Origin: Solwaraspora sp. WMMD406
Lineage (GTDB): Bacteria; Actinomycetota; Actinomycetes; Mycobacteriales; Micromonosporaceae
Direction: 5' to 3'
NCBI RefSeq assembly: GCF_029626025.1
Contig: NZ_JARUBF010000001.1
Coordinates: 1-64,000, forward strand
Length of the DNA: 64,000 nucleotides
A program made the translations under genes and the position numbers. A model generated the notes under the pieces. The model was not told the DNA's origin, searched no databases, and worked only from the letters and a program-made list of their open reading frames with translations. This document shows, in pieces, positions 23,986 through 54,262 of this stretch. Every line of letters starts with the position of its first letter. Position 1 is the first letter of the stretch.

Positions 23986-24063
23986 GTGGCTAGCCGAAGG
24001 GACGGGGAAATCATGCGGCTGATCACGTCCGGCGAGCTGATCGACGACCGGACCACCACGTGA
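23986..24063 (+). pseudogene. probable acyl-CoA dehydrogenase 3' remnant
   Basis: The frame GEIMRLITSGELIDDR ends at a TGA overlapping the start of the next gene. Glu-Ile-Met-Arg-Leu-Ile-x-Ser/Gly-x-x-Leu is the usual C-terminal pattern of acyl-CoA dehydrogenases. The rest of the gene is gone, replaced by the IS debris on the left. The overlap with a 3-hydroxyisobutyryl-CoA hydrolase-like gene suggests an original isobutyryl-CoA dehydrogenase of valine breakdown. The call rests on about 15 residues. Confidence 0.45.
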
Positions 24064-25139: not shown

Positions 25140-26123
25140 TCAGGGCGCCGCGATACCGATTTGCTCGATGCGATGACAGGCCGCTTGGTGGTCGGGGCCG
25201 GCAACCCGCAGGGTCGGCGCGGTCAGGCACACCTCGGCGGCATGAACGCAGCGCGGGCTGAACGCGCACCCGTCGGTGTGCGACCCGATGCTGGGCACCT
25301 CGCCGAGCGGCGTGTCGCCCGCTCGCCGGCCGGCGAGCGGTTCGGTCGCGGTCGCCGAGGCCACGAGCATCTGGGTGTACGGGTGCCGGGGGCGGTTGAA
25401 CACCTCTTCGGTCGGCCCGGACTCCACGATCCGGCCGAGATACATAACAGCCATCTGGTGACTGAGGTGCCGCGCGATGTCGATCTCGTGTGTGATGATC
25501 ATGCAGGTGAGGTCGAACGACCGCTGTACGTCGAGGAGCAGGTTGATGATGCGGGCCTTGGTCGTCAGGTCCACGCTCGATGTCGGCTCGTCGAGCAGGA
25601 GTATCGACGGTTCGATGGCCAGCGCCCGCGCGACCACCACCCGTTGCAGCTCACCCACGCTCATCCCGACCGGCAGGCGTGGCAGGTAGTCGGCGGACAG
25701 ACCGACTCGTTCCAGCAGGGCTCCCGCCCGCCGGTCCTGCTCCGCCTGGTCGGTGCCGATGTGGTGTACCCGCAGCGGCTGGGTGAGCGCGTGCCGGATC
25801 GTACGGCTGCGGTTGAGTGACGACAACGGGTTCTGCGGTACGAGCTGCACGGCCCGCCGGTGCCGGCGCAGCGCCCGCCGGTCGCTGATGTCGGTGTCGT
25901 CCACGAAGATGCGCCCGGCCGTGGCCTGGTAGATGCCGGCGATCGTACGGACCAGCGTCGACTTGCCGCAGCCGCTCTCCCCGACCAGCGCCAGTGTCTG
26001 GCCGGGTTCGATGGTCAGCGAGACGTCGTTGACCGCGTGCACGCTGGGCGTACGCATGGTCCGCCACGACCGCCGGCCGTGGAAGGTCTTGGACAGCTCT
26101 TCGACGCGCAGTCGCTGGCTCAT
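25140..26123 (-). CDS. Dpp/Opp-type ABC transporter ATPase 2
   Basis: The ATPase has 327 residues. Walker A GESGCGKST, Q-loop VPQNP, Walker B ILLLDEPTS and H-loop IITHE are intact. The signature is MSVGELQR instead of the usual LSGGQRQR, which may weaken ATP closure on one site. The oligopeptide-type C-terminal extension has Cys residues (GCAFSPRCVHAAEVC) near 283-297 for a possible Fe-S or Zn site. It is last in the minus-strand unit, overlaps the preceding ATPase gene by 4 bp, and pairs with it as the nucleotide-binding heterodimer. Confidence 0.92.
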   Translation of the reverse strand: MSQRLRVEELSKTFHGRRSWRTMRTPSVHAVNDVSLTIEPGQTLALVGESGCGKSTLVRTIAGIYQATAGRIFVDDTDISDRRALRRHRRAVQLVPQNPLSSLNRSRTIRHALTQPLRVHHIGTDQAEQDRRAGALLERVGLSADYLPRLPVGMSVGELQRVVVARALAIEPSILLLDEPTSSVDLTTKARIINLLLDVQRSFDLTCMIITHEIDIARHLSHQMAVMYLGRIVESGPTEEVFNRPRHPYTQMLVASATATEPLAGRRAGDTPLGEVPSIGSHTDGCAFSPRCVHAAEVCLTAPTLRVAGPDHQAACHRIEQIGIAAP

Positions 26124-27133
26124 CGATCCTCCAGAAGATCACCGGGCGGCCAGCCGCCGTCCGGGTAGCGGTGGCAGGCCACCCGGCCGGCGGCAGCCGG
26201 CAGCAGCTGCGGCGTGTCCTCGTGGCAGACGTCGGCGGCGATCGGGCAGCGCGGGGCGAACGAGCAGCCACGCCGGTCCTCCGGCAGGCTGGACACACTT
26301 CCGGCGAGCACCGGCATCGGCTCGCGGGGGGTGTGCCGGCTGGGGATCGCGTCGAGCAGCGCCCGGGTGTAGGGGTGCCTCGGCTGGTCGAAGATTGACC
26401 GTACGTCTCCTTCCTCGACGATGTCGCCGGCGTACATCACGTACACCCGGTCGCAGAGCTGCGCCACCGACCGCAGGTCATGGCTCACGAAGACGATGGC
26501 CAGGCCCAGCTCGTCGCGCAGGTCGCGCAGCAACCGCAGGATCTGGGCGGCCACGGTCGGATCGAGCGTGGTCGTCGGCTCGTCGGCGAACAGCAGCCGT
26601 GGCCGTGCGCCGACCGCCGCGACCGCGACGAGCAGTCGCTGCAGTTGGCCGCCGGAGAACTGGTGCGGATAGTTGTCCAGGCGTCCGGCGACGCCGTCGA
26701 GGCCGACCCGGTGCAACATGTCCGCGATCACCACGTCGATGTCGGTCGACTCACCCGCCCGGTGGCGGCGCAGCAGCCGGCGAATCTGCCGGCGGACCCG
26801 GGTCACCGGGCTGAACGAGGTCATCGGCCGCTGGGGCACCAGGCCGATCTCCCGCCCCCGCACGGCGCGCAGCACCGCATCGCCAGCCGTAGCTAGGTCC
26901 GTCCCGTTGAACAGTATCCGGCCCGAGTGCAGATCGGCGTTCGGCGGGAGCAGGCCGAGTACCGACATCAGCGCCGTGCTCTTGCCGCTGCCCGACTCGC
27001 CGACGATTCCGACCACCTCGCCGGGGTGTACGACGAAGGACACCCCCCGCACGGCCGTACGTGTGCGGCCCTGGCGGCGATATGTCGTCCGCAGGGAGTC
27101 GATCTCCAGCAACGGTTCCACGCGTGTCTCCAT
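26120..27133 (-). CDS. Dpp/Opp-type ABC transporter ATPase 1
   Basis: The ATPase has 337 residues. Walker A is GESGSGKST, the signature FSGGQLQR, Walker B LLFADEPTT and the H-loop FVSHD. The oligo_HPY C-terminal region includes the Cys motif GCSFAPRCPIAADVC. All ATPase motifs are canonical. It lies between the permease gene and the second ATPase in a single transcription unit. Confidence 0.93.
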   Translation of the reverse strand: METRVEPLLEIDSLRTTYRRQGRTRTAVRGVSFVVHPGEVVGIVGESGSGKSTALMSVLGLLPPNADLHSGRILFNGTDLATAGDAVLRAVRGREIGLVPQRPMTSFSPVTRVRRQIRRLLRRHRAGESTDIDVVIADMLHRVGLDGVAGRLDNYPHQFSGGQLQRLLVAVAAVGARPRLLFADEPTTTLDPTVAAQILRLLRDLRDELGLAIVFVSHDLRSVAQLCDRVYVMYAGDIVEEGDVRSIFDQPRHPYTRALLDAIPSRHTPREPMPVLAGSVSSLPEDRRGCSFAPRCPIAADVCHEDTPQLLPAAAGRVACHRYPDGGWPPGDLLEDR

Positions 27134-27140
27134 TCCTGGC

Positions 27141-28097
27141 TCAGTCGCGCAACTGTGGGGACAACCGGTCGGTCAACGCGTCACCGACGAGGTTGAGCCC
27201 GACGATCACGATCATCAGCACCAGCCCGGGCATCACCGAATACCACCATGCGCCGTAGAGCACGTAGTTGCGTGCGTCGTGCAGAAGGTTGCCGAGCGTG
27301 GGGTCCGGAGCCTGGACGCCCAGGCCGAGGAAGCTCAGCGCGGCCTCCGCGAAGATCGCCACCGCCATCCAGAGGAAGGCCTGCACGAACACGGGCGGCA
27401 GCACGTTGATGGAGATCTCCCCGAAGATGATCCGGAACCGGGAGACCCCGATGACCCGTAGCGAATCGGCGTACTCCTCCTCGCGTTCGACCATCGTCGC
27501 CGCGCGGGCCACCCGGGCGAACTTCGGCAATGTGGTGATCGCGATGACGGTGACGACCTGCACCTCGATCGGCGCGGGCAGGCCGAGAATCGTGCCGCCG
27601 CTGGCCCGGCTGAGGCCGAGGAAGACGACACCGAGGATGAACAGCGGCAGCGCCATGATGACGTCGAGGCACCGCATGATCAGCTCGTCGATCCAGGTAC
27701 GGGCGAAGTAGCCGGCGACCATCCCGAGCGGCAGGGCGACGGCCAGGCCCAGCACGACACTGGCGAGCGCCACCACCAGCGACAGGCGTGCGCCGGCGGC
27801 CGTACGGGCGAAGATGTCCCGCCCCAGCTGGTCGGTCCCGAACAGATGCTCCAGGTTGGGTGGGACGAGGATGTCGTCGCCCTGAGCGAGCGGGTCGCCG
27901 CCGACGAACGTGCCGATGACGACCACCGCCAGGTAGGCGACGATCAGGAGCAGACCGATCCGCGACGGCCAGGTCGCGACGACCACCCGGCCCAAGGTGC
28001 GCAGGCCGGCGAGACGCGGCGGTCTCGCCGGGGTGGTGATCGTCTCGGCCGGCGGTGGAGCGGTCGCCGGAACGGGCGGCGTCGACGTCGATTGCAT
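27141..28097 (-). CDS. Dpp/Opp-type ABC permease (DppC-like)
   Basis: The permease has 318 residues. A Pro/Thr-rich cytoplasmic N-terminus (about 1-40) is followed by six predicted membrane segments, the first at about 47-65. The periplasmic signature HLFGTDQLGRDIFAR is at about 84-98. The EAA-loop (YADSLRVIGVSRFRIIFGEI) would dock the ATPases. A typical C-terminal domain ends SPQLRD. It is transcribed with the DppB-like partner 14 bp upstream. Confidence 0.92.
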   Translation of the reverse strand: MQSTSTPPVPATAPPPAETITTPARPPRLAGLRTLGRVVVATWPSRIGLLLIVAYLAVVVIGTFVGGDPLAQGDDILVPPNLEHLFGTDQLGRDIFARTAAGARLSLVVALASVVLGLAVALPLGMVAGYFARTWIDELIMRCLDVIMALPLFILGVVFLGLSRASGGTILGLPAPIEVQVVTVIAITTLPKFARVARAATMVEREEEYADSLRVIGVSRFRIIFGEISINVLPPVFVQAFLWMAVAIFAEAALSFLGLGVQAPDPTLGNLLHDARNYVLYGAWWYSVMPGLVLMIVIVGLNLVGDALTDRLSPQLRD

Positions 28098-28111
28098 GAC
28101 CGCGTTCCTTC

Positions 28112-29089
28112 CTAGAGGTCCCGGACCGAGACCCGCTGGCGGTAGAGTTCACGGACTCTGGGATTGATCACCGCGTACAGCAGGTCGACCACAAGGTTCA
28201 GCACCACGCAGAACAGCGCGATGAACAGGGTGCACCCGATCGCGACCGGGAAGTCCTGCTTCTCGAACGAGTCGATCATCAACTGGCCGATCCCGGGAAT
28301 GGTGAACACCACCTCCACGATCACCGTGCCACCGATCAGGTAGGCCAGGGCCAACCCGATGACCGTCGCCGTCGGAATCATCGCGTTCGGCAGCGCCACC
28401 CGCCCGTTGACCGCCCTCGGCGACAACGACATCGCCCGGGCGAACATGACGTAGTCGCGGCCGAGCGCGTCCAACATGGATACCCGCAGGGTCCGCGCGA
28501 TGATCGCCACGTACGGTAGGGCGAGGACGAGCACCGGCAGGATCATGTGCTGGATGTTGCCGAGCGGGTCCTCGGTCAACGGCACCCAGCCGCCGGTCGG
28601 CACGATCCCCGGTAGGTAGAGACCGAACAGGAACAACAGCAGTAACGCGAGCCAGAAGCCGGGGACGGAGAAGCTGACGAGCGTGCCGACCCGGATCGCC
28701 GTGTCGAGCTTCGACCCGTACCGTGCGCCGGCGAGCCGGCCGAGTGCGACGCCCAGCGGGGTCGCCACGATCAGTGCCACGATCGCCAGTTCGACGGTGG
28801 CCGGGGCCCGCTCCAGCACCTCGGTCAGCACGTCGCGGCCGGTGAAGACGGACTGGCCCAGGTCACCCGTGACGGCGTTGGACAGGTACGCCCAGTAGCG
28901 TTCCGGCAGCGACCCGTCCAGCCCCATCAGCGTACGGATGGCAGCCACGTCCTCCTCGGTGGCGTACGCGCCGGCGTAGATCCGGGCCGGGTCGCCGGGG
29001 GCGAAGTCCACCAGCACGAACACCAGGGTGGCCACCGCCAGGAGGACGACGAACGAACCGATCACCCGCCGGACCACGTATCCTGCCAT
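28112..29089 (-). CDS. Dpp/Opp-type ABC permease (DppB-like)
   Basis: The permease has 325 residues. The N-terminal membrane segment VVRRVIGSFVVLLAVATLVFVLV is canonical for DppB, followed by FAPGDPARIYAG and five more spans. The EAA-loop region is RTLRVSMLDALGRDYVMFARA. It forms the translocation pore with the DppC-like protein. It starts directly after hyuB, tying the importer to the hydantoinase pair. Confidence 0.92.
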   Translation of the reverse strand: MAGYVVRRVIGSFVVLLAVATLVFVLVDFAPGDPARIYAGAYATEEDVAAIRTLMGLDGSLPERYWAYLSNAVTGDLGQSVFTGRDVLTEVLERAPATVELAIVALIVATPLGVALGRLAGARYGSKLDTAIRVGTLVSFSVPGFWLALLLLFLFGLYLPGIVPTGGWVPLTEDPLGNIQHMILPVLVLALPYVAIIARTLRVSMLDALGRDYVMFARAMSLSPRAVNGRVALPNAMIPTATVIGLALAYLIGGTVIVEVVFTIPGIGQLMIDSFEKQDFPVAIGCTLFIALFCVVLNLVVDLLYAVINPRVRELYRQRVSVRDL

Positions 29090-29095
29090 CGATCG

Positions 29096-30820
29096 CTACT
29101 CCTCTTCCGAAGGGTTCCGCCGGCCGTACACCGCCTGTGCGCGGGCCATGGTGATGTAGCCGTCGCGGAGGTCGGCCGTGACGGCGGCCGGAGGGCGGTG
29201 TCGGGGATCGCCCCACCCGCCTCCGCCGGGTGAGCGCAGTGTCACGCCGTCGCCGGGTCTCAGCCGCACGTGCCGCACCTTCGCACCGGGGAGGTCCCGT
29301 CGTCGCCCCTCCACGTCCAGGTGCACGGTCAACGCCCGGGCGTCGGTGCCGCCGCGCACGCCGAACGGGGCGAACCGCGCCCGGTCCCCGATGATGCTGA
29401 TCGACACCGACGGGTCGAGAGACGTGATCTGGTAGGTGTTGCCCAGTCCACCGCGGTGCAGACCGTCGCCGGCGGAGTCGGCCGTCAGCTCGATGCGGTC
29501 GAATCGGATCGGGAACCGTCGTTCCATCGTCTCCACCGGCGGGTACTTCGCGGTTCCGTGGGGCGGTGGCGCGTTGACGAGCCCGTCGTCGTCGGGAAGC
29601 GCGCCCATGCCCCCGGCGGCTGGCAGCGGGATCGCCGCGGGTCGTCCGTCGCGGCCGGTCGCGGACAGGGACATGACCGCTGATGTCCCGAACCAGTCGG
29701 CGGGCACGTGCTCGGGCACACACCTGCCGAGTGCGCCCAGCACGACGGTGATCACCCGGGAGGCGCAGTCGAGGTAGCCGCCGACGGGCGCGGGCCGGAC
29801 CGCGTTGAGGAAGGAGCTGTCGTCGATGACGAGCCTGACCGGCTCGAGCGCGCCCCCGTTGACCGGCAGGTCCGGGAACATGTGCTTGATCGCGATGAAC
29901 GCGGCGGCCGCCGTCGTGTCCCGGCTGAGATTCATCGGACCGCGGGCAGGGCCGGCCGAACCGGTGAAGTCGAAGGTCATCGTGTCGCCGGCGATCCGTA
30001 GGGCGAGGCGCAGCAGCATCGGCCCGCCGCCGGCACCGTCGTCGTCGAGGTGGTCCTCGAACGGGTACTCCCCGTCCGGCAGCTCGGCGACGATCTGCCG
30101 CATCCGCTGGGCCGCCCGCGTCCGCAGCTGCGCGATCGCGGCCCGCACGGTGCCGGCACCGTATCGGGCCAGCAGTTCGTCCATGCGGCGTCGGCCGACC
30201 CGGAGTCCGTTGAGCATCGCTTCGAGGTCGGCTCGCTGCAGCTGTGGTGCCCGGATGTTGCCGAAGATCAGATCCGCGACGTCAGGGCATTCCCGGCCGG
30301 CCCGGTGCAGCAGCACAGGCGGGATACGCAGCCCTTCCTCGTAGCACTCGGTCGCGTCCGGCACGACCGAGCCAGGAAGGCTGCCGCCGATGTCCAGCCA
30401 GTGTCCACTCGTCGCCAGCCAGCAGAACAGTTCGCCGTCGACGAGGTAGGGAGCGAGGAGTTTGACGTCCGGCGCGTGGGTTCCTCCGGCGTACGGGTCG
30501 TTGAAGATGTAGACATCGCCGCCGCGCAAGTCGTCGAGCCGACCGCGCTCACGCAACAGCCCGATGGTACGGCCGACGGCGTATCCCATACCTGCGACGA
30601 AGATCGGCATGCTGTCCGGCCCCTGGGCGATCGTCGCGCCGTCCATCGCGTCGTAGAGGCCGGACGCGCGGTCGTCCATCTCGGAGATGACCGGGGAGAA
30701 GGCCGACCGCACCAGGGTGGTGTCCATCTCGGTGGCGACCTGTTGTAACGCCGCCCGCAGGACCGCCAGTGTCGTGGGATCGACGTCGGCGCTCGGACGT
30801 CGATCGTCGCCGGCCGTCAT
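29096..30820 (-). CDS. hyuB: hydantoinase B / oxoprolinase beta-type subunit
   Basis: The subunit has 574 residues. It contains the family block GDVYIFNDPYAGGTHAPDVKLL (about 101-122), GHWLDIGG, YEEGLRIPPV and the late segment HRGGLGNTYQI. It pairs with HyuA in ATP-dependent ring opening of hydantoins, N-methylhydantoin or 5-oxoproline, or acts like the beta subunit of acetone/acetophenone carboxylases. Overlap with hyuA (ATGA) supports a stoichiometric complex in the cytoplasm. The substrate is not predictable from sequence; the adjoining importer and amidase-type genes favour a cyclic amide or ureide. Confidence 0.9.
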   Translation of the reverse strand: MTAGDDRRPSADVDPTTLAVLRAALQQVATEMDTTLVRSAFSPVISEMDDRASGLYDAMDGATIAQGPDSMPIFVAGMGYAVGRTIGLLRERGRLDDLRGGDVYIFNDPYAGGTHAPDVKLLAPYLVDGELFCWLATSGHWLDIGGSLPGSVVPDATECYEEGLRIPPVLLHRAGRECPDVADLIFGNIRAPQLQRADLEAMLNGLRVGRRRMDELLARYGAGTVRAAIAQLRTRAAQRMRQIVAELPDGEYPFEDHLDDDGAGGGPMLLRLALRIAGDTMTFDFTGSAGPARGPMNLSRDTTAAAAFIAIKHMFPDLPVNGGALEPVRLVIDDSSFLNAVRPAPVGGYLDCASRVITVVLGALGRCVPEHVPADWFGTSAVMSLSATGRDGRPAAIPLPAAGGMGALPDDDGLVNAPPPHGTAKYPPVETMERRFPIRFDRIELTADSAGDGLHRGGLGNTYQITSLDPSVSISIIGDRARFAPFGVRGGTDARALTVHLDVEGRRRDLPGAKVRHVRLRPGDGVTLRSPGGGGWGDPRHRPPAAVTADLRDGYITMARAQAVYGRRNPSEEE

Positions 30821-32826
30821 GACTGTTCCCGGATGAGCAGGTTCCGCTCCGCGTCGACATCGGCCACGTACCCGGCTTCGAGGTAGACCGTGGCGTCCTC
30901 GCTGGACAGCAGCAGCGGCCCGAGCAGGTGCTCGCCCGGCTGCACCTCGTCCCGGTGCCGGGCCGCGGCATCGGAGGCGATGATCGGGGCGCCGGTACGG
31001 GGCGTCGCCGGCCGAACTCCCGCCGCTGCGGCTCCGTGCCGGGCCACCAGCGTCGATCTCAGTGTGACGATCTCGACCAGGCCGTCTGCCAACGTCCGGC
31101 CGTACCGCAGCCGGTAGGCGTCCCGGAACCGCCGCTCCGCCCCGGCGCGGCTGATCGGTCGTTCGAGCGGGACCCGCAAGTGATGGCTCTGCCCTCGGTA
31201 GCGCATGTCGCCCTCCACGACGATGTCGACGTCACGAGCCGCGATGCCTGTCTCGGTCAGCCGCTCTCGCAGCGTCTGCTCCTGGTCGTCGAGCATCCGG
31301 TGCAGCGTGGCCACGGTGTCCGCGTCGTCCAGCTGAGCTGCCGTGGTCGGCCACGATCGGCTGTTCTCGTACCGCAGGTCGGCCAGGGCACAACCGAGCG
31401 CGCTGACCAGTCCGGGTCGGGGCGGTACGAGAGCCGCCCGCATGCCGGTCTCCCGTAGCAACGGGCACACGTGCAATCCGCCACCTCCACCGAACACGAC
31501 GAGCGTGAACTCGCGTGGGTCGTGGCCGCGGGCGGTCAGTACCGACCGGATCGCGTTACCCATCGTGGTGGTGGCCACGGCCAGGATGCCCGACGCAGCC
31601 TCCTGCGCCGAGATACCCAGCGCGTCGGCGACCGGCTTGACAGCTGCCGCAGCGAATTCGGGGTCGAGCCGGTGTTGCCGGCCGGTGCCGAACCGGGCGT
31701 CCGGGTCGATACGGCCCAGCAGCAGGGCGGCGTCTGTGACCGTGGGCGCGGTACCACCGAGGCCGTAGCAGGCGGGACCCGGATCGGCACCGGCCGATTC
31801 CGGCCCCACGGTCAGCACGCCGAGCTCGTCGACGCGCGCGATGCTGCCACCGCCGGCGCCGACCGCCACGACGTCCACGCTTGACGTGACCAGCGGGAGC
31901 CGGAAGCCGAGGGCCGCGTCATTGACGTATCGTGGCCGGCCGTCGACGACGACCGACACGTCGGAGCTGGTGCCGCCGATGTCGCAGGTGACCAGGTTGG
32001 TCAGCCCGGCACGCCCGGCGAGCCCGACCGCCGCGAGCACGCCGGCCACCGGGCCTGAGCGGGCTACACCGATCGCCAGATCACGGGTCTGCTCGATCGA
32101 GGCGACCCCACCGTTGGACTGCATCACGAGCACGTCGCCGGTGTGCCCGATGTCGGCCAGCCGGCCCGCGAGTCGCCCCAGATAGGCTCCGACCACCGGT
32201 TGCAGGTAGCCGTTGGTAGCCGCGGTGGCGAACCGGACGAACTCCCCGGCCTCGGCGTAGACATCAGCCGAGCCGGTCACGTAACGCGGTTCGGGCCAGA
32301 ATTCGCGCAGCGCCGCCATCGCCTGTTGTTCATGGCGGCGATTGACGTCGGAGTGCAGAAAGCAGACCACGACCGCCTGGACGCCGGCCGACAGCAGCTG
32401 CCGGCCGGCGTCGCGTACCTCGTCCAGGTCCAGCGCTTCGACCACGACTCCGTCGTGAGCCAGCCGCTCACGGACCTCGATCCGGTCGCGCCGGGCCACG
32501 ACCGGCCGGTGCGCACCGGCGAAGCCGTAGATCTCCGGCCGGTCCCGGCGCCCCATCTCGACCACGTCGCGGAAGCCGCGGGTGGTGATGATGCCGCATC
32601 GGGCACCAGTGCGGGCGATGATCGCATTGGTCGCGACCGTCGTGCTGTGAACCAGAAGGGTCCGGGCGTCCCGCTCCGTGCGGATCTGTTCCACAGCGGC
32701 GGCGATGGCGCGCGACGGATCGTCCGGCGTGGACGGGACCTTCGCCACGCAGACGTGGCGGCCGGCCTCGACGAGCACGGCGTCGGTGAACGTGCCCCCG
32801 ACGTCGACCCCGATGACGCGCGTCAT
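30817..32826 (-). CDS. hyuA: hydantoinase A / oxoprolinase alpha-type subunit
   Basis: The subunit has 669 residues with an ASKHA-type nucleotide-binding fold. The N-terminal phosphate loop VIGVDVGGTFTDAVL is at residues 4-18, and the second, DIGGTSSDVSVVVDG, at about 286-300. Typical HyuA blocks are ATNAIIARTGARCGIITTRGFRDV and FGGGGGLHVCPL. It hydrolyses ATP to activate the ring amide for hydrolysis with HyuB. The gene follows the substrate-binding protein gene by 10 bp. Confidence 0.92.
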   Translation of the reverse strand: MTRVIGVDVGGTFTDAVLVEAGRHVCVAKVPSTPDDPSRAIAAAVEQIRTERDARTLLVHSTTVATNAIIARTGARCGIITTRGFRDVVEMGRRDRPEIYGFAGAHRPVVARRDRIEVRERLAHDGVVVEALDLDEVRDAGRQLLSAGVQAVVVCFLHSDVNRRHEQQAMAALREFWPEPRYVTGSADVYAEAGEFVRFATAATNGYLQPVVGAYLGRLAGRLADIGHTGDVLVMQSNGGVASIEQTRDLAIGVARSGPVAGVLAAVGLAGRAGLTNLVTCDIGGTSSDVSVVVDGRPRYVNDAALGFRLPLVTSSVDVVAVGAGGGSIARVDELGVLTVGPESAGADPGPACYGLGGTAPTVTDAALLLGRIDPDARFGTGRQHRLDPEFAAAAVKPVADALGISAQEAASGILAVATTTMGNAIRSVLTARGHDPREFTLVVFGGGGGLHVCPLLRETGMRAALVPPRPGLVSALGCALADLRYENSRSWPTTAAQLDDADTVATLHRMLDDQEQTLRERLTETGIAARDVDIVVEGDMRYRGQSHHLRVPLERPISRAGAERRFRDAYRLRYGRTLADGLVEIVTLRSTLVARHGAAAAGVRPATPRTGAPIIASDAAARHRDEVQPGEHLLGPLLLSSEDATVYLEAGYVADVDAERNLLIREQS

Positions 32827-32836
32827 CCCCGTCGTC

Positions 32837-37606: not shown

Positions 37607-37610
37607 GGCC

Positions 37611-41900: not shown

Positions 41901-43894
41901 CACATCCTCCTCGGTCCTGGACCCGCCGCGAGCCCCATGCCACAGAGGTGTCCCTCGTACACGGCTTCGAGCACCGAACGCGGCGCGACCGCGTCGCCCA
42001 CCAGGTGCACCCGGTCGGGTCCGAGTCGTTCGTGCAACGCCGGCACAAGCCCGTCGTCGGCTCGCGCGGCACCGGCGTCCACAACGCTGTGGACGCCGGC
42101 GAGCTTCTCCACTTCTCCGGTGATGACATCGACCAGTCGCAGCGATCCGTCCGGTGCGGGTTCCGGTTCCAGCCGGCGCAGCGGGTGCACCTTGACCCGC
42201 AGCAGCCCGAGCCGCCGTACCAGAGCCAGCCGCGAGTAGGTCGTGATCCGCCCTGCGAAGGATGCCGTCGGCGACACCAGCCGGACCCGCCAGCCTTGCC
42301 GGGCGTACTGCTCGGCGACGGCGCTGCCGGCCCAGTCGCCGTGGTCGTCGAAGATCAGCACCTCGCGGCCGGCGCCATCGCGGGCGTCGCGCAACGCGGT
42401 CACCGCGTCCCACAGGTCCAGTAGCGGCAGGCCGGTGACCAACGGGCGACGCACCGGGCGCGAGCCGGTGGCCACCACGACCGCGTCCGGGTCCATGCCC
42501 GCCAGGCTGTCCGCGGTCGCCGGCGTGTCGAGCCGCACCCGTACGCCAGCCGCCCGCGCGTCGCGTTCCAACTCGTCGACCAGCAGGCCGAACCGCCGAC
42601 GCGCGGCCAGGCCACGCAGCCGGGCCACCTGACCGCCGAGAGCCGGACCGGCTTCGACCAACGTCACCGTGTGCCCGCGGCGAGCGGACTCGATCGCCGC
42701 CGACAGACCGGCCGGACCGCCGCCGACGACGAGGACCGACCGCGACGGGCCGGGCCCCGGGACCGGCAGCCACTCGCGACCCGCGCGGGGGTTCACCACA
42801 CAGGCCATGTCGAGGCCGGCCTCGATGCGGCCGAGGCAGCCCTGGTTGCAGGCCACACATGAGCGCACCGTGTGTTGACGGCCGGCCCGCGCCTTGTCAA
42901 ACAGGTGCGGATCGGCGATGTGGGCTCGGGCCAGGCCGACAAGGTCGGCGCTACCGTCGGCGATCAGGGTGGCCGCCTCGGGCAGACTGTCCAGCCGGCA
43001 CACGGCGATCACCGGCAGGCCGGGCACCGCGCGGCGGAACATCGCGGGGAACCGGCGGAACGGCGCGTGCGGGAACGTCATGTCGGCGATCTGCGTAGCC
43101 AGCGTGTAACTGCCGTGGTATGCGGAGTGACTGACATCGAGAAAGGCCAGCGGGAACTCCCGCTGCACGCCGCTGACGATCTCGACCATGTCGGCCGGGG
43201 TGAGACCGCCCGGCAGGAACTCGTCCGCGCTGATCCGCAGCCCGACCGGCAGGCCGTCGGCACTTTCGGACACGGCGGACAGGACCTCACGCAGCAGGCG
43301 CGCCCGGCCCGTCGCGTCCCGACCGTAGCCGTCGGTCCGGACGTTGCTGACCGGGGACAGGAACTGGTGGATGAGGTGGCCGTGACCGGCGTGCACCTCG
43401 ACTCCGTCGAAGCCGGCCCGGCGCATCCGTCGTGCCGCGGCGGCGAACGCCCGGACGACGACGGCGATCTCCGCCGCGTTCATGGCATGCGGAACGTGCG
43501 CTCCGGGGGTCCAAGAGATGGCCGACGGAGCCCAGGCGACCACCCGACCCCCGTCCCCCGGCGCCTGCCGCCCGGTGTGCACCAGTTGTGCGACGATGGC
43601 CGCGCCGTGCGCGTGCACCGCGTCGGTGAGCCCGCGTAGCGGGTCCACGCAGTCGTCGCCGAACGCTCCGAGCGTGGTGGACCGCCCGGCGCTGGTCGGA
43701 TGTACCCGGATCGCCTCCGTGATGATCAAGCCGGCGCCGCCCCGGGCACGCTCCGCGTGGTAGGCCACGAGACGCTCGGTAGCGAGGTTGTCCCGCGCGA
43801 AGTTCGTTGTGTGGGCCGGCACCACGACCCGGTTACGTAACGCCAGACCACCCGCCTCCAGCGGAGCGGACAGCAACGCCATCACATCGGTCAT
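41900..43894 (-). CDS. old-yellow-enzyme/2,4-dienoyl-CoA reductase-type Fe-S flavoprotein
   Basis: The protein has 664 residues from ATG 43894. N-terminal TIM barrel (1-340) with FMN-binding features (VVPAHTTNFA, VEVHAGHGHLIHQFLSP). The 4Fe-4S cysteines are 346, 349, 353 and 365 (SCVACNQGCLGR...MACVVNP). The C-terminal pyridine-nucleotide-disulfide-type domain begins VLVVGGGPAG (388-397). This is the architecture of FadH, trimethylamine dehydrogenase and related enzymes. It could reduce an activated double bond or oxidatively demethylate an amine. It heads the six-gene minus unit. Confidence 0.9.
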   Translation of the reverse strand: MTDVMALLSAPLEAGGLALRNRVVVPAHTTNFARDNLATERLVAYHAERARGGAGLIITEAIRVHPTSAGRSTTLGAFGDDCVDPLRGLTDAVHAHGAAIVAQLVHTGRQAPGDGGRVVAWAPSAISWTPGAHVPHAMNAAEIAVVVRAFAAAARRMRRAGFDGVEVHAGHGHLIHQFLSPVSNVRTDGYGRDATGRARLLREVLSAVSESADGLPVGLRISADEFLPGGLTPADMVEIVSGVQREFPLAFLDVSHSAYHGSYTLATQIADMTFPHAPFRRFPAMFRRAVPGLPVIAVCRLDSLPEAATLIADGSADLVGLARAHIADPHLFDKARAGRQHTVRSCVACNQGCLGRIEAGLDMACVVNPRAGREWLPVPGPGPSRSVLVVGGGPAGLSAAIESARRGHTVTLVEAGPALGGQVARLRGLAARRRFGLLVDELERDARAAGVRVRLDTPATADSLAGMDPDAVVVATGSRPVRRPLVTGLPLLDLWDAVTALRDARDGAGREVLIFDDHGDWAGSAVAEQYARQGWRVRLVSPTASFAGRITTYSRLALVRRLGLLRVKVHPLRRLEPEPAPDGSLRLVDVITGEVEKLAGVHSVVDAGAARADDGLVPALHERLGPDRVHLVGDAVAPRSVLEAVYEGHLCGMGLAAGPGPRRM

Positions 43895-44070
43895 CAACGA
43901 TCAATCCGGAGCACGAAGGCGGGCGACATGACCGGAACCCTAGCCCTGCGGCATAGCAGCGTCAACGAAAAACGTTCCGTGAGCTGAAACACCAGGGTAG
44001 AACGTTTGACAGAGCGGAATGTTCCGGCGAGGCTAGCGATCACGACGCGCTCTCCCAGGAAGGCCTTCAC
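43895..44070. promoter_or_regulatory. divergent promoter region with IclR-like palindromes
   Basis: This 176-bp region lies between the flavoprotein and decarboxylase-like genes. A near-palindrome CGGAATGTTCCG lies at 44015-44026; further GTTCC and GAACG half-sites occur at about 43973-43979 and 43999-44004. Arms of this type (xGGAA...TTCCx) are typical for IclR-family operators, and an iclR gene ends the cluster. The AGGAAGG site before 44071 is the ribosome site. Confidence 0.5.
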
Positions 44071-44973
44071 ATGACGCAGACGAGCAACCCCAAGGCCATG
44101 CACGGCAACAAGGTCGGCGTGATGTGGCCGCAGTCCCCGACCGGCCGGGCCAGCCTCATGGACCTCAACACCGAGCCCGACCTGGTGCTCTCCGACGACG
44201 TGCTGATCGTCGGCTTCAAAGCCGACCCCGACGCGGTCCGGGCCTACGTGCCTGAGCCACTGGAACTCGACGGCTCCGGGACCATGTACATCAAGGCCGT
44301 CCAGCGCTGGGGCTACACCAGCCGCAACGCGACCGAGTTCATCAGCTTCGAACGACTCAACCAGACCGAGTCCTTCTTCTGGATTCCCTGCTCCTACCGC
44401 GGCCAGGAGTTCTACTTCGTGCCCTTCTCGTGGGGCAACCGGGACTGGCTGGGCTACACCGGCAGACTCGTCGGAATGCCGCACAAGTGGGCAAAAGTAC
44501 AAATGACGAGCTTCCACTCGTTCCACCCGACCTACAACGAGGCTCACGCCGGCGCCCGGATCTGCGCCAGCGTCGAGAACATGGGCTTGGTGCACCGCCT
44601 GTACGGCGACCTCAAAGAGGTCATCCGGCCCGAGGACACGCCGTTCAAGTGGGTCCAGGGGTCCTGCCCCCACTTCCTGGGCCACCGCTACATCTGGGAC
44701 TCGGTCAAGGGCCGCCCGCTGGCCAACGACCTCGTCGCGCACTACGGCGACGACGTCGAGATGGGACCGGTGTGGCAGGGCGACGGCTGGGTCCAGTTCT
44801 TCGATGCCGAGAACGACGAGGTACTGCAGTTCCAGCCACGCGAAATGCTCGGCTCCTGGTTCTTCACGCTGCGCTTCACCCACCAGAAGAGCTCGCCCTA
44901 CATCGTCCACGACTACGGCGACGAGAGCCCTTACGCCGACCGGCCGCGGATCAAGGAACTGCTCGGCCGCTGA
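44071..44973 (+). CDS. acetoacetate decarboxylase-family protein
   Basis: The protein has 300 residues. The fold is suggested by VLIVGFKADPDAVRAYVPEPLEL (about 44-66), FWIPCSYRGQEFYFVPFSWGNRDWL, GMPHKWAKVQMTSFH and the final GSWFFTLRF. The lysine in GMPHKWAK is in the region where acetoacetate decarboxylase forms its Schiff base. The family includes true decarboxylases and cyclase/aldolase-like members, so a Schiff-base decarboxylation or C-C bond step is inferred. First gene of a five-gene plus unit. Confidence 0.8.
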   Translation: MTQTSNPKAMHGNKVGVMWPQSPTGRASLMDLNTEPDLVLSDDVLIVGFKADPDAVRAYVPEPLELDGSGTMYIKAVQRWGYTSRNATEFISFERLNQTESFFWIPCSYRGQEFYFVPFSWGNRDWLGYTGRLVGMPHKWAKVQMTSFHSFHPTYNEAHAGARICASVENMGLVHRLYGDLKEVIRPEDTPFKWVQGSCPHFLGHRYIWDSVKGRPLANDLVAHYGDDVEMGPVWQGDGWVQFFDAENDEVLQFQPREMLGSWFFTLRFTHQKSSPYIVHDYGDESPYADRPRIKELLGR

Positions 44974-45007
44974 CGCCGGGCCGTTCGCGAAAGGGGAGGA
45001 CCGGACC

Positions 45008-45907
45008 GTGCGTGACCTCGAAGCCATGCTCTACGTACCGGCGGGTGACGCCCGTAAGCTCGACAAGGTGCCGCAACTACTGGCCACGACGACGATCATC
45101 GTCGATCTTGAGGACGCCGTCGCCGCCGAGGCCAAGGAAGACGCACGCATCGCGCTCGGGCGGATGCTCGACAACATCGACCCGGCCGACTCCGGTGACC
45201 GACGAGGCCAGATCTGGGTCCGGATCAACGCCCCCGGCACGGACGCGTACACCGCCGACCTAGACACATGTATACGGGCTGAGGTTTGCGGTCTGGTCGT
45301 ACCCAAGGCCACTGCAGACTCGCTGCGGGCCGTCGCGTCGCACGCTCAGCAGCGGGAGAGCGCGGCGGGGCTGACCGCCGGCTCCGTCGCGCTGATGGGT
45401 TTGATCGAAACGGTCGGCGGCTGGCACAGCGTACGGACGGCGACCGACCTGCCGGCACGGGTGCACGGGCTCAGCTTCGGCGCGGGCGACCTCTCCCTCG
45501 AGCTCGGACTACCGTTCCCACCACCCGGCGGCGTACAGGGCCACACTCTGCTGGTCGCCAAGGCCGAACTGGTCCTGCACAGCCGCCGGCTGGGGCTGGC
45601 TCCGCCACACGACGGTGTCTACCCCGCGTTCCACGACCTGGACACCCTACGCGCCGAGGCCGAGATCGCCAGATCGATGGGTTTCGTCGGCAAGCACACC
45701 ATCCACCCCGATCAGGTGCCTGTCGTGCGATCCGTGTTCGACCGGGACCCGGCCGAGCTCGACAAGGCACGACGGATCCTGGACGCGGCGGAACAAGCAC
45801 GGCGACTCGGTCTGGGTAACGCGAACGTCGACGGCGAACTAGTCGACGTTCCTGTGGTCGAACGTGCCCGCCAGCTACTGCAGGAAGCCGGGGGTAAGAA
45901 GTCATGA
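45008..45907 (+). CDS. HpcH/HpaI-family CitE-like lyase
   Basis: GTG 45008 follows GGGGAGG by seven bases, giving 299 residues. The frame extends further upstream, but only into the previous gene. Motifs of the CitE/malyl-CoA lyase group: MLYVPAGDARKL (7-18), IIVDLEDAVA (about 30-39) with the magnesium-binding acids, LMGLIETVGGW, LSFGAGDLSLELG and GKHTIHPDQV near the C-terminus. The enzyme cleaves or forms 3-hydroxy(-methyl)dicarboxyl-CoA thioesters. It overlaps the CoA-transferase fusion gene by ATGA, supporting a CoA-ester substrate. Confidence 0.9.
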   Translation: MRDLEAMLYVPAGDARKLDKVPQLLATTTIIVDLEDAVAAEAKEDARIALGRMLDNIDPADSGDRRGQIWVRINAPGTDAYTADLDTCIRAEVCGLVVPKATADSLRAVASHAQQRESAAGLTAGSVALMGLIETVGGWHSVRTATDLPARVHGLSFGAGDLSLELGLPFPPPGGVQGHTLLVAKAELVLHSRRLGLAPPHDGVYPAFHDLDTLRAEAEIARSMGFVGKHTIHPDQVPVVRSVFDRDPAELDKARRILDAAEQARRLGLGNANVDGELVDVPVVERARQLLQEAGGKKS

Positions 45908-47811
45908 CCGAAGATGCGGCGCTCGCCTCGATCCGGGTGCTCGACCTGTCCTCTCTGTACGCCGGCCCCTACATCGCCACCCTGCTCGGCGACTTCGGCG
46001 CCGACGTCATCAAGGTCGAACACCCACGAGGCGACGACGCCCGACGCTGGGGCCTGGCCAAGGGCAGCGTTCCGCTGTGGTGGAAGACGATTTCCCGCAA
46101 CAAGCGCCTGATTTGCCTAGATCTGCACGACGAGTCCGACCGGCTCCTCGCGCGACGGCTGGCTGTCGAGTGGGCCGACGTGGTGATCGAGAACTTCCGA
46201 CCAGGCCGGCTGGAGCAATGGGGACTGGGCTACTCCGACCTCGCGGCGGAAAACCCCGGCCTGGTGATGGTGCGGGTCACCGGTTTCGGCCAGACCGGTC
46301 CGTACCGGAACCACCCCGGGTTCGGCACGCTCGCCGAGGCGTTCGCCGGCTTCGCCGCTATCACCGGTGAGCCCGACGGACCCCCCACCCTGCCACCGTT
46401 CGGCCTGGCCGACGGGGTCGCCGCGCTCACCGGCGCGTACGCGACGATGGTCGCACTCCACTGGCGGGACACGTCCCGCGACGGACGCGGGCAGATGATC
46501 GACCTCAGCCTCTACGAGCCGCTGCTGTCGATCCTCGGCCCGCAGGTCACCGAGTTCACCCAGACCGGCGTGGTGCAACAACGGCAGGGCAACCGGTCCA
46601 ACCGCACCTCCCCCCGCAACGCCTACCGCACGGCAGACGACCGGTGGGTCGCGCTGTCCGGCGGCACCCAGCAGATCGCCAACCGGATCATGACCGCGGT
46701 CGGCCGGCCCGAGCTGGCCGACGACCCCCGGTTCAGCAGTCCGCCCGCCCGGCGGGCGAACGCCGATGAACTCGACAGGATCGTCGCAGACTGGATCGCC
46801 CGCAACACCCAAGCCGACGTCCTGGCCGCGTTCGAGGCCGTCGAAGCACCGATCGCACCGGTCAACGACGCGGAGTCACTCGCCGTCGACCCGCACGTGC
46901 GGGCTCGGGAAAGCATCATCGACCTGCCCGACGACGACCTCGGAACCATCACCACCACCGGAATCATCGCCAAACTCAGCGCGACGCCGGGCCGCGTCCG
47001 ACACACCGGCCGGGTCGAGGTGGGCGCCGACACCACCAGCGTGCTGGCCGATCTGACAGCGGGCCGCCGTACCCCGGCCCCGGCAGCGGAAACCGACGGA
47101 GTCATCGGCGACGGCCGGCGACCATGGGACGACCTCGTCACCGACATCGACCGACAGACCATCCGCCGCTCAGCGTTCGGCCGCCGGGTCGGCATCGGAC
47201 CCCGACCGGCCCTCCTCGTGATCGACGCGCAGAACTACATGGTCGGCCCGCCGCCCGGCTCCACCCACGAGTATCCCTCGGCGTGCCCATCGGCCGCCGC
47301 CGCGCTGCCCACGCTGCGCGGCCTGATCGACCACGCCCGGTCTGTCGGCGTTCCCGTCATCTATACTCAGTGGACTGTTGCTCCCGGCGGCAGCGACATC
47401 GGCGTCTACGGGCGCAAGCGTGACATCCTGACCACCCAGGGCTGGGCGCTGGAAGGCAGCGAGGGCGCCCAAATCCACGACGCCGTCGCGCCCGAATCCG
47501 GTGACCTCGTTCTGGTCAAGAAGAAGCCGAGCGCCTTCCATGGCACCCCGCTGCTGAATCTGCTGATCGACCGCGGAATCGACACGGTCATCGTGACCGG
47601 CGGCGCGACCAGCAACTGCGTCCGGGCCACGACGATCGACAGCGCCTCCTACAACTTCCGCACGATCGTCGTCGAGGACTGCGTGTTCGATCGGATCGAC
47701 ATCTCACACCGGATAGCGTTGTTCGACGTCGACAGGCAGTTCGCCGACGTGATGCCGGCGCGCGACGTGATGGCCGCGCTGCCGGCGCCGGCAGCCGGCG
47801 AGACGACGTGA
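45904..47811 (+). CDS. class III CoA-transferase fused to isochorismatase-like cysteine amidohydrolase
   Basis: This is a 635-residue two-domain protein. Residues 1-395 form a CaiB/BaiF CoA-transferase: IRVLDLSSLYAGPY (10-23), FGADVIKVEHPRGDD, ENFRPGRLEQWGLGY, and the catalytic Asp170 in FGLADGVAAL. Residues about 432-630 are an isochorismatase-like hydrolase with the triad Asp441 (LLVIDAQNYM), a Lys in VKKKPSAF (539-541) and Cys572 in GGATSNCVRATTIDS, closest in look to N-carbamoylsarcosine amidase. There is no stop or start between them, so this is a true fusion. It would couple amide hydrolysis to CoA activation of the product. It overlaps genes on both sides by 4 bp. Confidence 0.9.
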   Translation: MTEDAALASIRVLDLSSLYAGPYIATLLGDFGADVIKVEHPRGDDARRWGLAKGSVPLWWKTISRNKRLICLDLHDESDRLLARRLAVEWADVVIENFRPGRLEQWGLGYSDLAAENPGLVMVRVTGFGQTGPYRNHPGFGTLAEAFAGFAAITGEPDGPPTLPPFGLADGVAALTGAYATMVALHWRDTSRDGRGQMIDLSLYEPLLSILGPQVTEFTQTGVVQQRQGNRSNRTSPRNAYRTADDRWVALSGGTQQIANRIMTAVGRPELADDPRFSSPPARRANADELDRIVADWIARNTQADVLAAFEAVEAPIAPVNDAESLAVDPHVRARESIIDLPDDDLGTITTTGIIAKLSATPGRVRHTGRVEVGADTTSVLADLTAGRRTPAPAAETDGVIGDGRRPWDDLVTDIDRQTIRRSAFGRRVGIGPRPALLVIDAQNYMVGPPPGSTHEYPSACPSAAAALPTLRGLIDHARSVGVPVIYTQWTVAPGGSDIGVYGRKRDILTTQGWALEGSEGAQIHDAVAPESGDLVLVKKKPSAFHGTPLLNLLIDRGIDTVIVTGGATSNCVRATTIDSASYNFRTIVVEDCVFDRIDISHRIALFDVDRQFADVMPARDVMAALPAPAAGETT

Positions 47812-48713
47812 GCACGCCCGTCCGCGACCTGATCGGCTACGGCCGCCGCCCACCGGTCGTACGCTGGCCGGGTGACGCCCGGGTCGCGGTCAGCATCGTC
47901 GTCAACTACGAGGAGGGCAGCGAACGGTCGTTCGAACGCGACGGAACGAACGAAGGACTGGGCGAAGTGCCACGGCGCGTCGACGGCCCCTACCGTGACC
48001 TGGCCACCGAGTCGGTCTACGAATACGGAAGCAGGGTCGGCGTGCACCGCCTGCTACGGCTGTTCGACCGGTACAAGGTCACCAGCACCTTCTTCGCCGC
48101 CGCCGAGGCGCTGGAAGCCAACCCAGAGGTCTGCGGGACGCTGCGAGAAGGCGGACACGAGGTATGCGCGCACGGATGGCGGTGGGCCGAAGAATGGACC
48201 CTTGACGTTGACGCCCAGCGGGAAGCGATCAAGCGCGCGGTCCGATCGATCGAGGCCACCTGCGGTCAACGGCCGGTCGGCTGGTACTCGCGTTGGATGC
48301 CCAGTGTGGACACCCGTCGGCTGCTCGTCGAGGAGGGCGGGTTCCGCTACGACTCAAACGCCTACAACGACGACCTGCCCTACTTCGTGTACGTCGGGAA
48401 AACCCCGTTCCTCGTGGTCCCCTACTCCCTGACATTCAACGACAGCCGGCACACCTACGGTCAACTCACCGCTGCCAGCGACTTCCTGGACGAATGCCGG
48501 CGAGGCTTCGACTATCTGTGGGAGGAGGCAGACCGTACGCCACGCATGATGTCGATCGGTGTGCACCCGCGACTGATCGGACAGCCCTCGCGGGCCTCGG
48601 CCCTGCGCGATTTCATCGACCACGTCCTGACCAAGGGCGGCGGATGGTTCGCCAGTCGGCGCGAGATCGCCGAGATCTGGTGGGACCAGCACCCTGCCGT
48701 CGAGCACCGCTGA
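47808..48713 (+). CDS. PuuE-like allantoinase / polysaccharide-deacetylase-family hydrolase
   Basis: The protein has 301 residues. The NodB-type barrel begins with VAVSIVVNYEEGSERSFERDG (about 26-46), where the usual catalytic Asp-Asp pair is replaced by the Asn-Tyr-Glu-Glu-Gly form seen in PuuE allantoinases and cyclic imidases. FFAAAEALE, EVCAHGWRW and MSIGVHPRLIGQPSRA complete the fold. Those homologues open ureide or imide rings without a sugar substrate. There is no signal peptide, so it is cytoplasmic and metabolic. Together with HyuAB it supports a cyclic amide, imide or ureide as the pathway substrate. Confidence 0.88.
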   Translation: MSTPVRDLIGYGRRPPVVRWPGDARVAVSIVVNYEEGSERSFERDGTNEGLGEVPRRVDGPYRDLATESVYEYGSRVGVHRLLRLFDRYKVTSTFFAAAEALEANPEVCGTLREGGHEVCAHGWRWAEEWTLDVDAQREAIKRAVRSIEATCGQRPVGWYSRWMPSVDTRRLLVEEGGFRYDSNAYNDDLPYFVYVGKTPFLVVPYSLTFNDSRHTYGQLTAASDFLDECRRGFDYLWEEADRTPRMMSIGVHPRLIGQPSRASALRDFIDHVLTKGGGWFASRREIAEIWWDQHPAVEHR

Positions 48714-48743
48714 CCGGATCGACCACATGTTACTTTCTTGCGT

Positions 48744-49553
48744 ATGACTCCCCCGCCCGCCTCACAGGCGCAGCGGCTCAGCGCCGTGCTACTTGCCTTC
48801 ACCGAAGGCATCGGCACCACGCTAGGCGTCTCCGAGATCGCGCGCCACCTCGACATCCCCAAGAGCGCCGTCCACCGTACGCTGGCGGCGCTGATCGAGG
48901 TCGGCTTGGTCGAGCGCGCCGCCGACTCGTCGCGGTACCGGCTGGGCAGCCGAGCCACCGCCTTGGCGATGGCCGCGCTGGGCGTTCCCGACGTACGCAC
49001 CTCCGCCCTGCCCTACCTGCAGGAGCTCGCCCGGCTGACCGGCGAATCAGCCACCCTGAGCCTCATGATCGGCAACGAACGGATCTACATCGAGCAGGTC
49101 GAAGGCCCCCAGGACATCCGGATGTCGGTCGAGATCGGGCGGCGTTACCCGCTGTACGCCGGCGCGTCCGGCCGGAGCATCCTCGCCGCGCTGCCACCAG
49201 CGGAACTCGACAGCTACCTACGCGCGGTCGAGCTGGTCACGCTCACGCCGGCCACGATCGCCGACACCGGGCAACTACGCACCGAACTCAAACGCATACA
49301 TGAAGTAGGCTACGCGGTAAGTCGCGGTGAACGCGACCCCTGGGCAGCCTCGGTAGCCGCAGCGGTCTTCGGGAACCACCGCGTGATCGGCTCGATGAGC
49401 GTCTGCGGTCCGGCAGCCCGGATCACCGACGAAGCCGCAGCCGGCTTCGGCGACACGGTCCGCCAGAGCGCGGCCAACCTGTCCCGGGCACTCGGCCACC
49501 GGCCAAAGTCCGGGTCGACACCGGCGGTCACCCAATCACACGGCATCGACTGA
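48744..49553 (+). CDS. IclR-family transcriptional regulator
   Basis: The protein has 269 residues; the ATG at 48744 is preferred over TTG 48738. An N-terminal winged helix (LGVSEIARHLDIPKSAVHRTLAALIEVGLVER, about 26-57) is followed by an IclR effector domain with GRRYPLYAGASGRSILAALP, GYAVSRGERDPWAASVAAAVF and VCGPAARI. It is the last gene of the plus unit, 30 bp after the PuuE-like gene, and so may control the cluster; the repeated GTTCC/GGAAC sites in the two divergent regions are candidate targets. Confidence 0.92.
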   Translation: MTPPPASQAQRLSAVLLAFTEGIGTTLGVSEIARHLDIPKSAVHRTLAALIEVGLVERAADSSRYRLGSRATALAMAALGVPDVRTSALPYLQELARLTGESATLSLMIGNERIYIEQVEGPQDIRMSVEIGRRYPLYAGASGRSILAALPPAELDSYLRAVELVTLTPATIADTGQLRTELKRIHEVGYAVSRGERDPWAASVAAAVFGNHRVIGSMSVCGPAARITDEAAAGFGDTVRQSAANLSRALGHRPKSGSTPAVTQSHGID

Positions 49554-54185: not shown

Positions 54186-54262
54186 GGCGTCTCCTGGTGG
54201 GAAACGGACGGCCTGGTCCTGGTGGGACGGCGGACGGGGCTTCTGGGTGGTTGCGGTGCCGG

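Follow-up and report, generated by a model that had tools for sequence, protein, structure and literature searches.

A composite catabolic locus of two separable modules in Solwaraspora sp. WMMD406, putatively acting on a cyclic imide or amide

In Blastobacter, cyclic imides are metabolized by an imidase and then by a half-amidase. As far as the titles cited within PMC9863593 tell, imidases are dihydropyrimidinase-like and one of them hydrolyses maleimide. Part of the text of PMC5214803 describes an ATP-dependent hydantoinase/caprolactamase family comprising HyuAB, CapAB and a predicted 2-oxoindoleacetyl-CoA lactamase. We analysed 64,000 nucleotides of Solwaraspora sp. WMMD406 (the window, which means this whole 64-kb stretch), in which relatives of both groups lie together at positions 25140–49553. 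It was found that this locus consists of two separable modules. The outer module contains an Opp importer, a substrate-binding protein (SBP), HyuAB, an acetoacetate decarboxylase (ADC)-like protein, CitE, a CoA-transferase–isochorismatase fusion, a PuuE-like protein and an IclR regulator. The inner module contains a cyclase-family hydrolase, MmgE/PrpD, a hydantoinase/dihydropyrimidinase-like amidohydrolase (gene dhp), an M20 hydrolase, a small protein, a methyltransferase and an iron-sulfur flavoprotein reductase of the old yellow enzyme (OYE) type. The conserved catabolic core around dhp is real and has no description in the literature searched. Our preferred explanation, to which we give an even chance, is a composite, co-regulated catabolic locus in which a trimmed copy of a widespread inner module lies in the divergent promoter of the outer HyuAB/Opp module.

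The four divergent units and the enzyme families named in the initial annotation were borne out by open reading frames (ORFs) and domain scans. Units 1 (minus strand, 25140–34426) and 4 (plus strand, 44071–49553) form the outer module, and units 2 (plus strand, 34884–37188) and 3 (minus strand, 37611–43897) form the inner one. Neighbouring genes of a unit overlap or are separated by no more than 34 bp; gene starts are our choice. The reference for module separation was G422, a genome of another genus. An alignment scan of the genome collection gave at least 417 confirmed dhp relatives, the best 80 of which (63–72% identical, all actinobacterial by their titles) were used below; these loci are best matches, not a random sample, and include related species, so that counts overstate independence. 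The genes are as follows, with amino acid identities to G422 where given.

25140–26123, minus: oppF, OppF-type ABC ATPase (ABC_tran and oligo_HPY; 84% in G422)
26120–27133, minus: oppD, OppD-type ABC ATPase (domain scan; 86% in G422)
27141–28097, minus: oppC, OppC-type permease (domain scan; 89% in G422)
28112–29089, minus: oppB, OppB-type permease (domain scan; 94% in G422)
29096–30820, minus: hyuB, ATP-dependent hydantoinase/oxoprolinase family (PF02538, 496.7 bits; 83% in G422)
30817–32826, minus: hyuA (PF05378 and PF01968; 81% in G422)
32837–34426, minus: Opp-type SBP (SBP_bac_5; 87% in G422)
34884–35774, plus: cyclase-family hydrolase PF04199, core (at least 45% identity in 49 of 80 dhp loci)
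35767–37188, plus: MmgE/PrpD, core (at least 45% identity in 51 of 80 dhp loci)
37611–39104, minus: dhp, predicted ring opener, core anchor
39101–40543, minus: M20 metallohydrolase, accessory (61–69% in collinear clusters)
40510–40821, minus: conserved 103-amino-acid protein (52–60%; adjoins the methyltransferase elsewhere too)
40818–41900, minus: class I methyltransferase with an N-terminal helical part (structure model, pLDDT 86.5)
41900–43897, minus: OYE/FadH-type iron-sulfur flavoprotein reductase (PF00724)
44071–44973, plus: ADC-family protein with His for the Schiff-base Lys (PF06314, 92.6 bits; 98% in G422)
45008–45907, plus: citE, CitE/HpcH-type lyase (domain scan; 78% in G422)
45904–47811, plus: class III CoA-transferase fused to an isochorismatase-fold hydrolase (85% full-length relative in G422)
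47808–48713, plus: PuuE-like hydrolase of polysaccharide-deacetylase fold (domain scan; 88% in G422)
48738–49553, plus: iclR, IclR-family regulator, candidate reader of the dyads below (relatives of at least 35% identity in 60 of 80 dhp loci)

Some details of the gene content had to be revised. The CoA-transferase and the isochorismatase-type hydrolase are both present as proposed, not as separate genes but as a single ORF of 635 amino acids. The 103-amino-acid protein between M20 and methyltransferase was missing from the initial inventory. The "decarboxylase-like" protein does belong to the acetoacetate decarboxylase family (92.6 bits against the PF06314 cut-off of 29.8); nevertheless, three alignments (with MppR and two ADCs) place a His, followed by a Lys, at the position of the Lys which we take to form the Schiff base in acetoacetate decarboxylase structures. 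No Rfam family reached its gathering score between 24000 and 50000.

The 24 kb did not prove to be one conserved cluster. On contig C47 of G422, oppFDCB-hyuBA-SBP stands directly against adc-citE-coaT/icm-puuE-iclR without the inner part, and a complete inner cluster lies on another contig, C4, in one row: oye-mtase-small-SBP-ATPase-permease-SDR-M20-hydrolase-iclR-coaT-cyclase-mmgE-dhp-citE (SDR, short-chain dehydrogenase/reductase). The DNA of the window and C47 was 83.6% identical over 9,782 columns and 84.0% over 5,653 columns, the extra part of the window being 8.98 kb (34884–43863, from the cyclase through nearly all of OYE). Conservation of the whole set was likewise not seen by genome neighbourhood: within ∼10 kb of dhp, an isochorismatase was found in 3 of 80 loci, and HyuA, HyuB, PuuE and ADC in none. 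The separation in G422 and the absence of HyuA, HyuB, PuuE and ADC from the 80 loci thus amount to independent occurrence of the units, the very outcome that the initial annotation had named as counting against it, as far as an inseparable cluster is concerned. A single indivisible 24-kb cluster was rejected because G422 separates the modules.

The whole collinear inner cluster was found in eight other genomes (G422, G112, G183, G306, G322, G335, G338 and G339). In four of the seven besides G422, the loci are named as Micromonospora, Streptomyces, Pseudonocardia and Nocardioides, and an EamA transporter gene also lies within the row in four of the seven. The cluster is rearranged in Blastococcus (L051). 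The inner module of the window is a reduced copy of this cluster. Close relatives of its methyltransferase (68–69% identity) occurred in only 3 of 297 other genomes of the order. In G338, a second methyltransferase-hydrolase-M20-OYE set, 39–46% identical to the queries, was observed beside the complete inner cluster (L122, 3.7–9.9 kb).

Members of the outer module are rare. In a search at E ≤ 1e-100 with up to five candidates scored per genome, two of 250 family genomes, the window's own and G422, had the CoA-transferase/isochorismatase fusion at full length; in G483 the two are separate neighbouring genes, 35–40% identical. The ADC-like protein was found in the same two genomes out of 354 (E ≤ 1e-30), and a 396-genome phylum sample added only weak relatives (27–30% identity) from two more genomes. 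Both genomes found with the outer module also hold the inner one. A search of the strain's genome gave no close relative of the inner-type CoA-transferase or CitE: the best match to the inner-type citE was the window's own (34%), and that to coaT was the window's fusion (53%, next 34%). The outer CoA-transferase and CitE therefore probably serve both modules. The ADC-like protein is 98% identical across the two genera, and the remaining outer-module proteins 78–94%. Four HyuB genes exist in the genome, three of them far from the window. A locus of G021 (L015, 8.6–12.6 kb) has a PuuE relative (58%) beside IclR- (30%), CitE- (33%) and Opp-SBP-like (24%) genes, perhaps a partial parallel of the outer module.

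The G422 DNA beside adc runs into the first codons of OYE, with 21 of 29 bases identical, and the place of the corresponding 33-mer was the best of 52,063 positions in G422 (24 of 33, against 21 for the next). On the strength of this match, at one junction, we rejected the view that the inner module was inserted into an already existing outer cluster. The junction suggests that the nested arrangement came first and that the inner part was lost in G422, which kept the complete copy on C4.

The association of the core genes in actinobacteria exceeds chance. Besides the cyclase, MmgE/PrpD and IclR genes counted above, relatives of the CoA-transferase (≥45% identity) were found near dhp in 67 and CitE-type genes (30%) in 53 of the 80 loci. 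Among 64 loci of at least 21 kb, CoA-transferase, mmgE and cyclase occurred together in 37, and at least one of them in 58. In 33 loci from among the best dhp matches, not a random sample, MmgE/PrpD lay within ∼10 kb of dhp in 30 loci against 0.36 expected from per-genome copy numbers (113 MmgE matches in 33 genomes). The methyltransferase occurred in 7 of these 33 genomes, namely in all six with M20 beside dhp versus 1 of the 27 others (Fisher p = 6 × 10–6). A Rhodococcus gordoniae plasmid, outside the 80-locus set, carries hyuAB, amidase, mmgE, cyclase, citE, iclR, a FAD protein, dhp and CoA-transferase together, which indicates that hyuAB can join the core. A FAD_binding_2 protein was found near dhp in 33 of 80 loci and in none of the eight collinear clusters; it is common to Methylobacterium, Halomarina and R. 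gordoniae at 39–44%. It was rejected as a strict alternative to OYE (of the 64 full loci, 30 have the FAD protein, 5 have OYE and 1 has both, versus ∼2.3 expected; not significant).

An inverted repeat upstream of the SBP gene led to a search for GTTC-N9-GAAC. The sites in the divergent promoters of the window, written as GTTCC-N7-GGAAC, are the following.

34466–34482: dyad 1, one mismatch, SBP/cyclase divergent promoter, conserved in G422
34855–34871: dyad 2, one mismatch, SBP/cyclase divergent promoter, conserved in G422
43974–43990: dyad 3, one mismatch, OYE/ADC divergent promoter, identical sequence in G422

These are three of five dyad sites in the window, and all three are kept in G422. 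When spacings of 3–15 were compared in the 80 loci, GTTC gave 10 close pairs at spacing 9 and none at all others; the letter permutation TCGT also gave one close pair. The half-site was extended from GTTC to GTTCC after the pairs had been seen in the same loci. With at most one mismatch, 174 sites were found in the 80 loci versus 40–50 in five shuffles, and dyad pairs 90–150 bp apart in 14 loci versus 0–1. The zones upstream of core genes cover 4.4% of the bases but contained 100 of the 174 sites, spread over 50 loci; the binomial figure for this enrichment overstates independence since related species are among the loci. Dyads also occur upstream of OYE in several collinear clusters; in G339 no dyad with at most one mismatch was found. 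The dyads in both divergent promoters, together with their enrichment upstream of core genes elsewhere, support co-regulation, and IclR may be the protein that reads these predicted operators. Shared operators, co-occurrence of the modules and the genome's lack of a close inner-type CoA-transferase or CitE argue that the four units may work together in this organism.

In an alignment of dhp with four relatives (A1, five of six intended rows), the HxH motif, Lys, His, His, Asp and a Tyr five residues past the Lys are all kept. The former are presumably the binuclear metal ligands, and the Tyr presumably the hydantoinase-type catalytic residue. Nearest solved structures were IDS-epimerase and cis-aconitate decarboxylase for MmgE/PrpD, and NCR and 2,4-dienoyl-CoA reductase for OYE. 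The methyltransferase gave general class I fold matches only, with TM-scores by query of at most 0.48 among the 50 matches listed; its alignment (A2) contained the window's protein and 13 of 17 methyltransferase-like ORFs. The cyclase and isochorismatase beside dhp are candidate half-amide hydrolases.

The initial annotation had found no match to known hydantoin, uric-acid or pyrimidine pathways, and this agreed with the curated models, since all that matched scored below cut-off. For dhp, the score was 152.8 bits against 393.25 for TIGR02033 (D-hydantoinase/dihydropyrimidinase); NF058539 (ErtD, ergothioneine utilisation) gave 174.2 against 650. HyuA and HyuB reached 433.4 and 277.3 bits with NF050156 and NF050157 (CapA and CapB; cut-offs 1000), and the PuuE-like protein 292.8 of 424.6 with TIGR03212 (PuuE allantoinase). 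RutB (48.2 against 377.95; pyrimidine Rut), BiuH (39.3 against 370; biuret), RipC (itaconate degradation; 109.5 against 375), PrpD (63.7 against 950) and TIGR03997 (mycofactocin FadH/OYE 2; 551.6 against 793.15, for OYE) behaved alike. Hydantoin, allantoin, ergothioneine, caprolactam, Rut and itaconate assignments were rejected on these grounds. No creatininase or creatinine deaminase, for which no dedicated search was made, was among the Pfam hits of the cluster, and no urate or ureidoglycolate enzyme among its Pfam and NCBIfam hits above cut-off. Literature searches with combinations of MmgE/PrpD, hydantoinase/dihydropyrimidinase, CoA-transferase and isochorismatase returned no paper; those with odd phrases are weak negatives.

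Compared with the described systems, the locus shares with the cyclic-imide metabolism of Blastobacter a predicted dihydropyrimidinase-type ring opener and candidate half-amide hydrolases leading toward a dicarboxylic acid, but here CoA-transferase, MmgE/PrpD, CitE, OYE and methyltransferase lie alongside. It shares the HyuA and HyuB domains and the hyuAB gene pair with the HyuAB/CapAB family, whereas the CapA and CapB scores set it apart. Allantoin degradation also has a PuuE protein, but the window's relative misses the corresponding cut-off and urate or ureidoglycolate enzymes are absent from the hits above cut-off. The class III CoA-transferase, CitE/RipC-like lyase and MmgE/PrpD are, we assume, the kinds of step found in itaconate/citramalate and 2-methylcitrate routes, from which the locus differs by its low RipC and PrpD scores and added nitrogen-ring hydrolases.

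The chemistry was approached through 12 non-actinobacterial loci with distant dhp relatives, from proteobacteria and haloarchaea, and four controls, hand-picked from BLAST listings (Halomarina was reached via a CoA-transferase query). Within ∼10 kb of dhp, an isochorismatase was found in 9 of the 12, an MmgE/AcnA/LeuCD-type hydratase in 7, and a CitE/HMG-CoA/ICL/PEP-mutase/PrpB-type lyase in 6, while none of the four control hydantoinase/allantoinase loci had an isochorismatase, such a hydratase or such a lyase. In Novosphingobium and Haladaptatus, a CoA-transferase gene lies next to an isochorismatase gene, an arrangement that matches the fusion in the window. These partners point to a cyclic imide or amide that would be opened, deamidated and cleaved. 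The simplest common reading would be ring opening, amide hydrolysis to a maleate- or aconitate-like acid, formation of a hydroxy acid and C–C cleavage; the partners favour such a half-amide/dicarboxylate route over decarbamoylation. The initial proposal of cyclic amide or imide catabolism with CoA activation and C–C cleavage thus fits the core and its cross-phylum neighbours, although not the 24 kb as a single unit. Two plasmid loci had further peculiarities. The haloarchaeal Halomarina plasmid (L034) carries three separate isochorismatase-dhp pairs within 15 kb. In Aminobacter MSH1 (L137) and further plasmid matches, dhp relatives adjoin "dipicolinate synthase DpsA", and the MSH1 locus further contains malate synthase and a member of the opine-dehydrogenase family; these loci may represent another conserved system built around dhp.

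For the composite locus, the following route is proposed from the gene families. A substrate would be imported by Opp, and OYE could reduce a conjugated C=C bond, with methyltransferase, M20 and the small protein taking part in further trimming. A cyclic imide or amide might be opened by dhp in the inner module and by the ATP-dependent HyuAB and/or the PuuE-like protein in the outer one, and the remaining amide might be hydrolysed by the cyclase or the isochorismatase. MmgE/PrpD would carry out hydration, dehydration, epimerisation or decarboxylation of a di- or tricarboxylic acid, the class III CoA-transferase fused to the isochorismatase would transfer CoA, and CitE would cleave a C–C bond to give an acyl-CoA and a 2-oxo acid, possibly under IclR control at GTTCC-N7-GGAAC.

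Several observations weigh against this explanation. The reactions, their order, the regulator-site link and the substrate are all predicted from sequence. A plain imide route has no step for a methyltransferase, and the small protein and M20 have no firm place either. At 45% identity, CoA-transferase, mmgE and cyclase are all missing from six of the 64 full loci, among them Streptomyces loci in which dhp is accompanied by importers only. The first Variovorax PBL-E5 copy, Halomicrococcus and Halorussus lack all three partner kinds (Halorussus, counted as partnerless, has a cyclase-family and an IclR gene), and in Aminobacter an isochorismatase is present without a hydratase or lyase of these types. 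When all 256 half-sites are ranked by close pairs at spacing 9, GTTC comes only eighth, behind GC-rich words. Just two genomes were found to carry the outer module. Unlike its relatives, the inner module of the window has no importer, SDR or alpha/beta hydrolase and might be decaying. This last point, with the missing iclR, coaT and citE of its own, the separate occurrence of the modules and transposase genes elsewhere in the window, would also suit two unrelated pathways side by side, the inner one being an incomplete and perhaps non-functional remnant acquired by chance. We consider this improbable: the inner module has open reading frames with high GC at third codon positions, operator-like sites lie in both divergent promoters, and G422, the only other holder of the outer module found, also has the inner one, although close relatives of its methyltransferase are rare.

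It is unlikely, though a little less so, that the locus is a ureide or hydantoin route, in which hydantoin-like rings would be opened by dhp, HyuAB and PuuE and then stripped of the carbamoyl group by M20 and isochorismatase, leaving an amino or hydroxy acid that enters CoA metabolism. The nearest relatives of dhp are hydantoinase, allantoinase and dihydropyrimidinase, N-carbamoylsarcosine amidohydrolase is the nearest solved structure to the isochorismatase half, Asp/Glu/hydantoin racemase family proteins lie near dhp in 24 of 80 loci, and PuuE and a racemase accompany hydA at one control locus, from Comamonadaceae. Such a route is, however, at odds with the Pfam hits of the cluster, which include neither an aminotransferase nor an amino acid dehydrogenase, with the aconitase-, MmgE- and lyase-type acid enzymes frequent among cross-phylum partners, and with ureide models matching below cut-off. 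The amide-hydrolase folds could also mislead, with dhp and its partners acting on a xenobiotic or on a ring without nitrogen (lactone or cyclic ketone); imide metabolism does not typically involve OYE, a methyltransferase, SDR or alpha/beta hydrolase, and importers at dhp loci vary (Opp, NMT1, Liv, MFS). This is very doubtful, given that three amide-opening families, the fused isochorismatase and an intact hydantoinase-type site indicate C–N bonds.

A further reading, in which we place little confidence, is that organisms of different domains use the dhp core to degrade alkyl-substituted maleimides and succinimides, such as the hematinic-acid and methyl-, ethyl- or vinyl-maleimide products of haem and chlorophyll breakdown. 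Just as speculatively, imide and half-amide hydrolysis might give a cis-unsaturated diacid, which MmgE/AcnA/LeuCD would convert to a tertiary hydroxy acid for cleavage by CitE/HMG-CoA-lyase/ICL-type lyases. If true, it would explain why imidase-, half-amidase-, maleate/aconitate-type and lyase enzymes occur together in actinobacteria, proteobacteria and haloarchaea. The core is conserved in many actinobacteria, has relatives in proteobacteria and haloarchaea, and is without function in the curated models and papers searched. Identification of its substrate would add a nitrogen-ring route and give functions to many "dihydroorotase-like", MmgE/PrpD, cyclase and class III CoA-transferase genes named by family only, and the nested layout offers a hint of how two such clusters can merge and use the same downstream enzymes.

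The surroundings of the locus were also inspected. Transposase-like genes of the DDE_3 type and IS66 at 4343–5539 and 18419–19822 hint at a mobile neighbourhood. An ECH_2 gene (3-hydroxyisobutyryl-CoA hydrolase type) at 24060–25100 is convergent with oppF, 39 bp apart. Just downstream of the cluster, at 52868–57975, genes of the citrate-synthase family (54263–55384), MmgE/PrpD (56341–57975) and aldehyde dehydrogenase form a set that resembles the methylcitrate cycle for propionyl-CoA.

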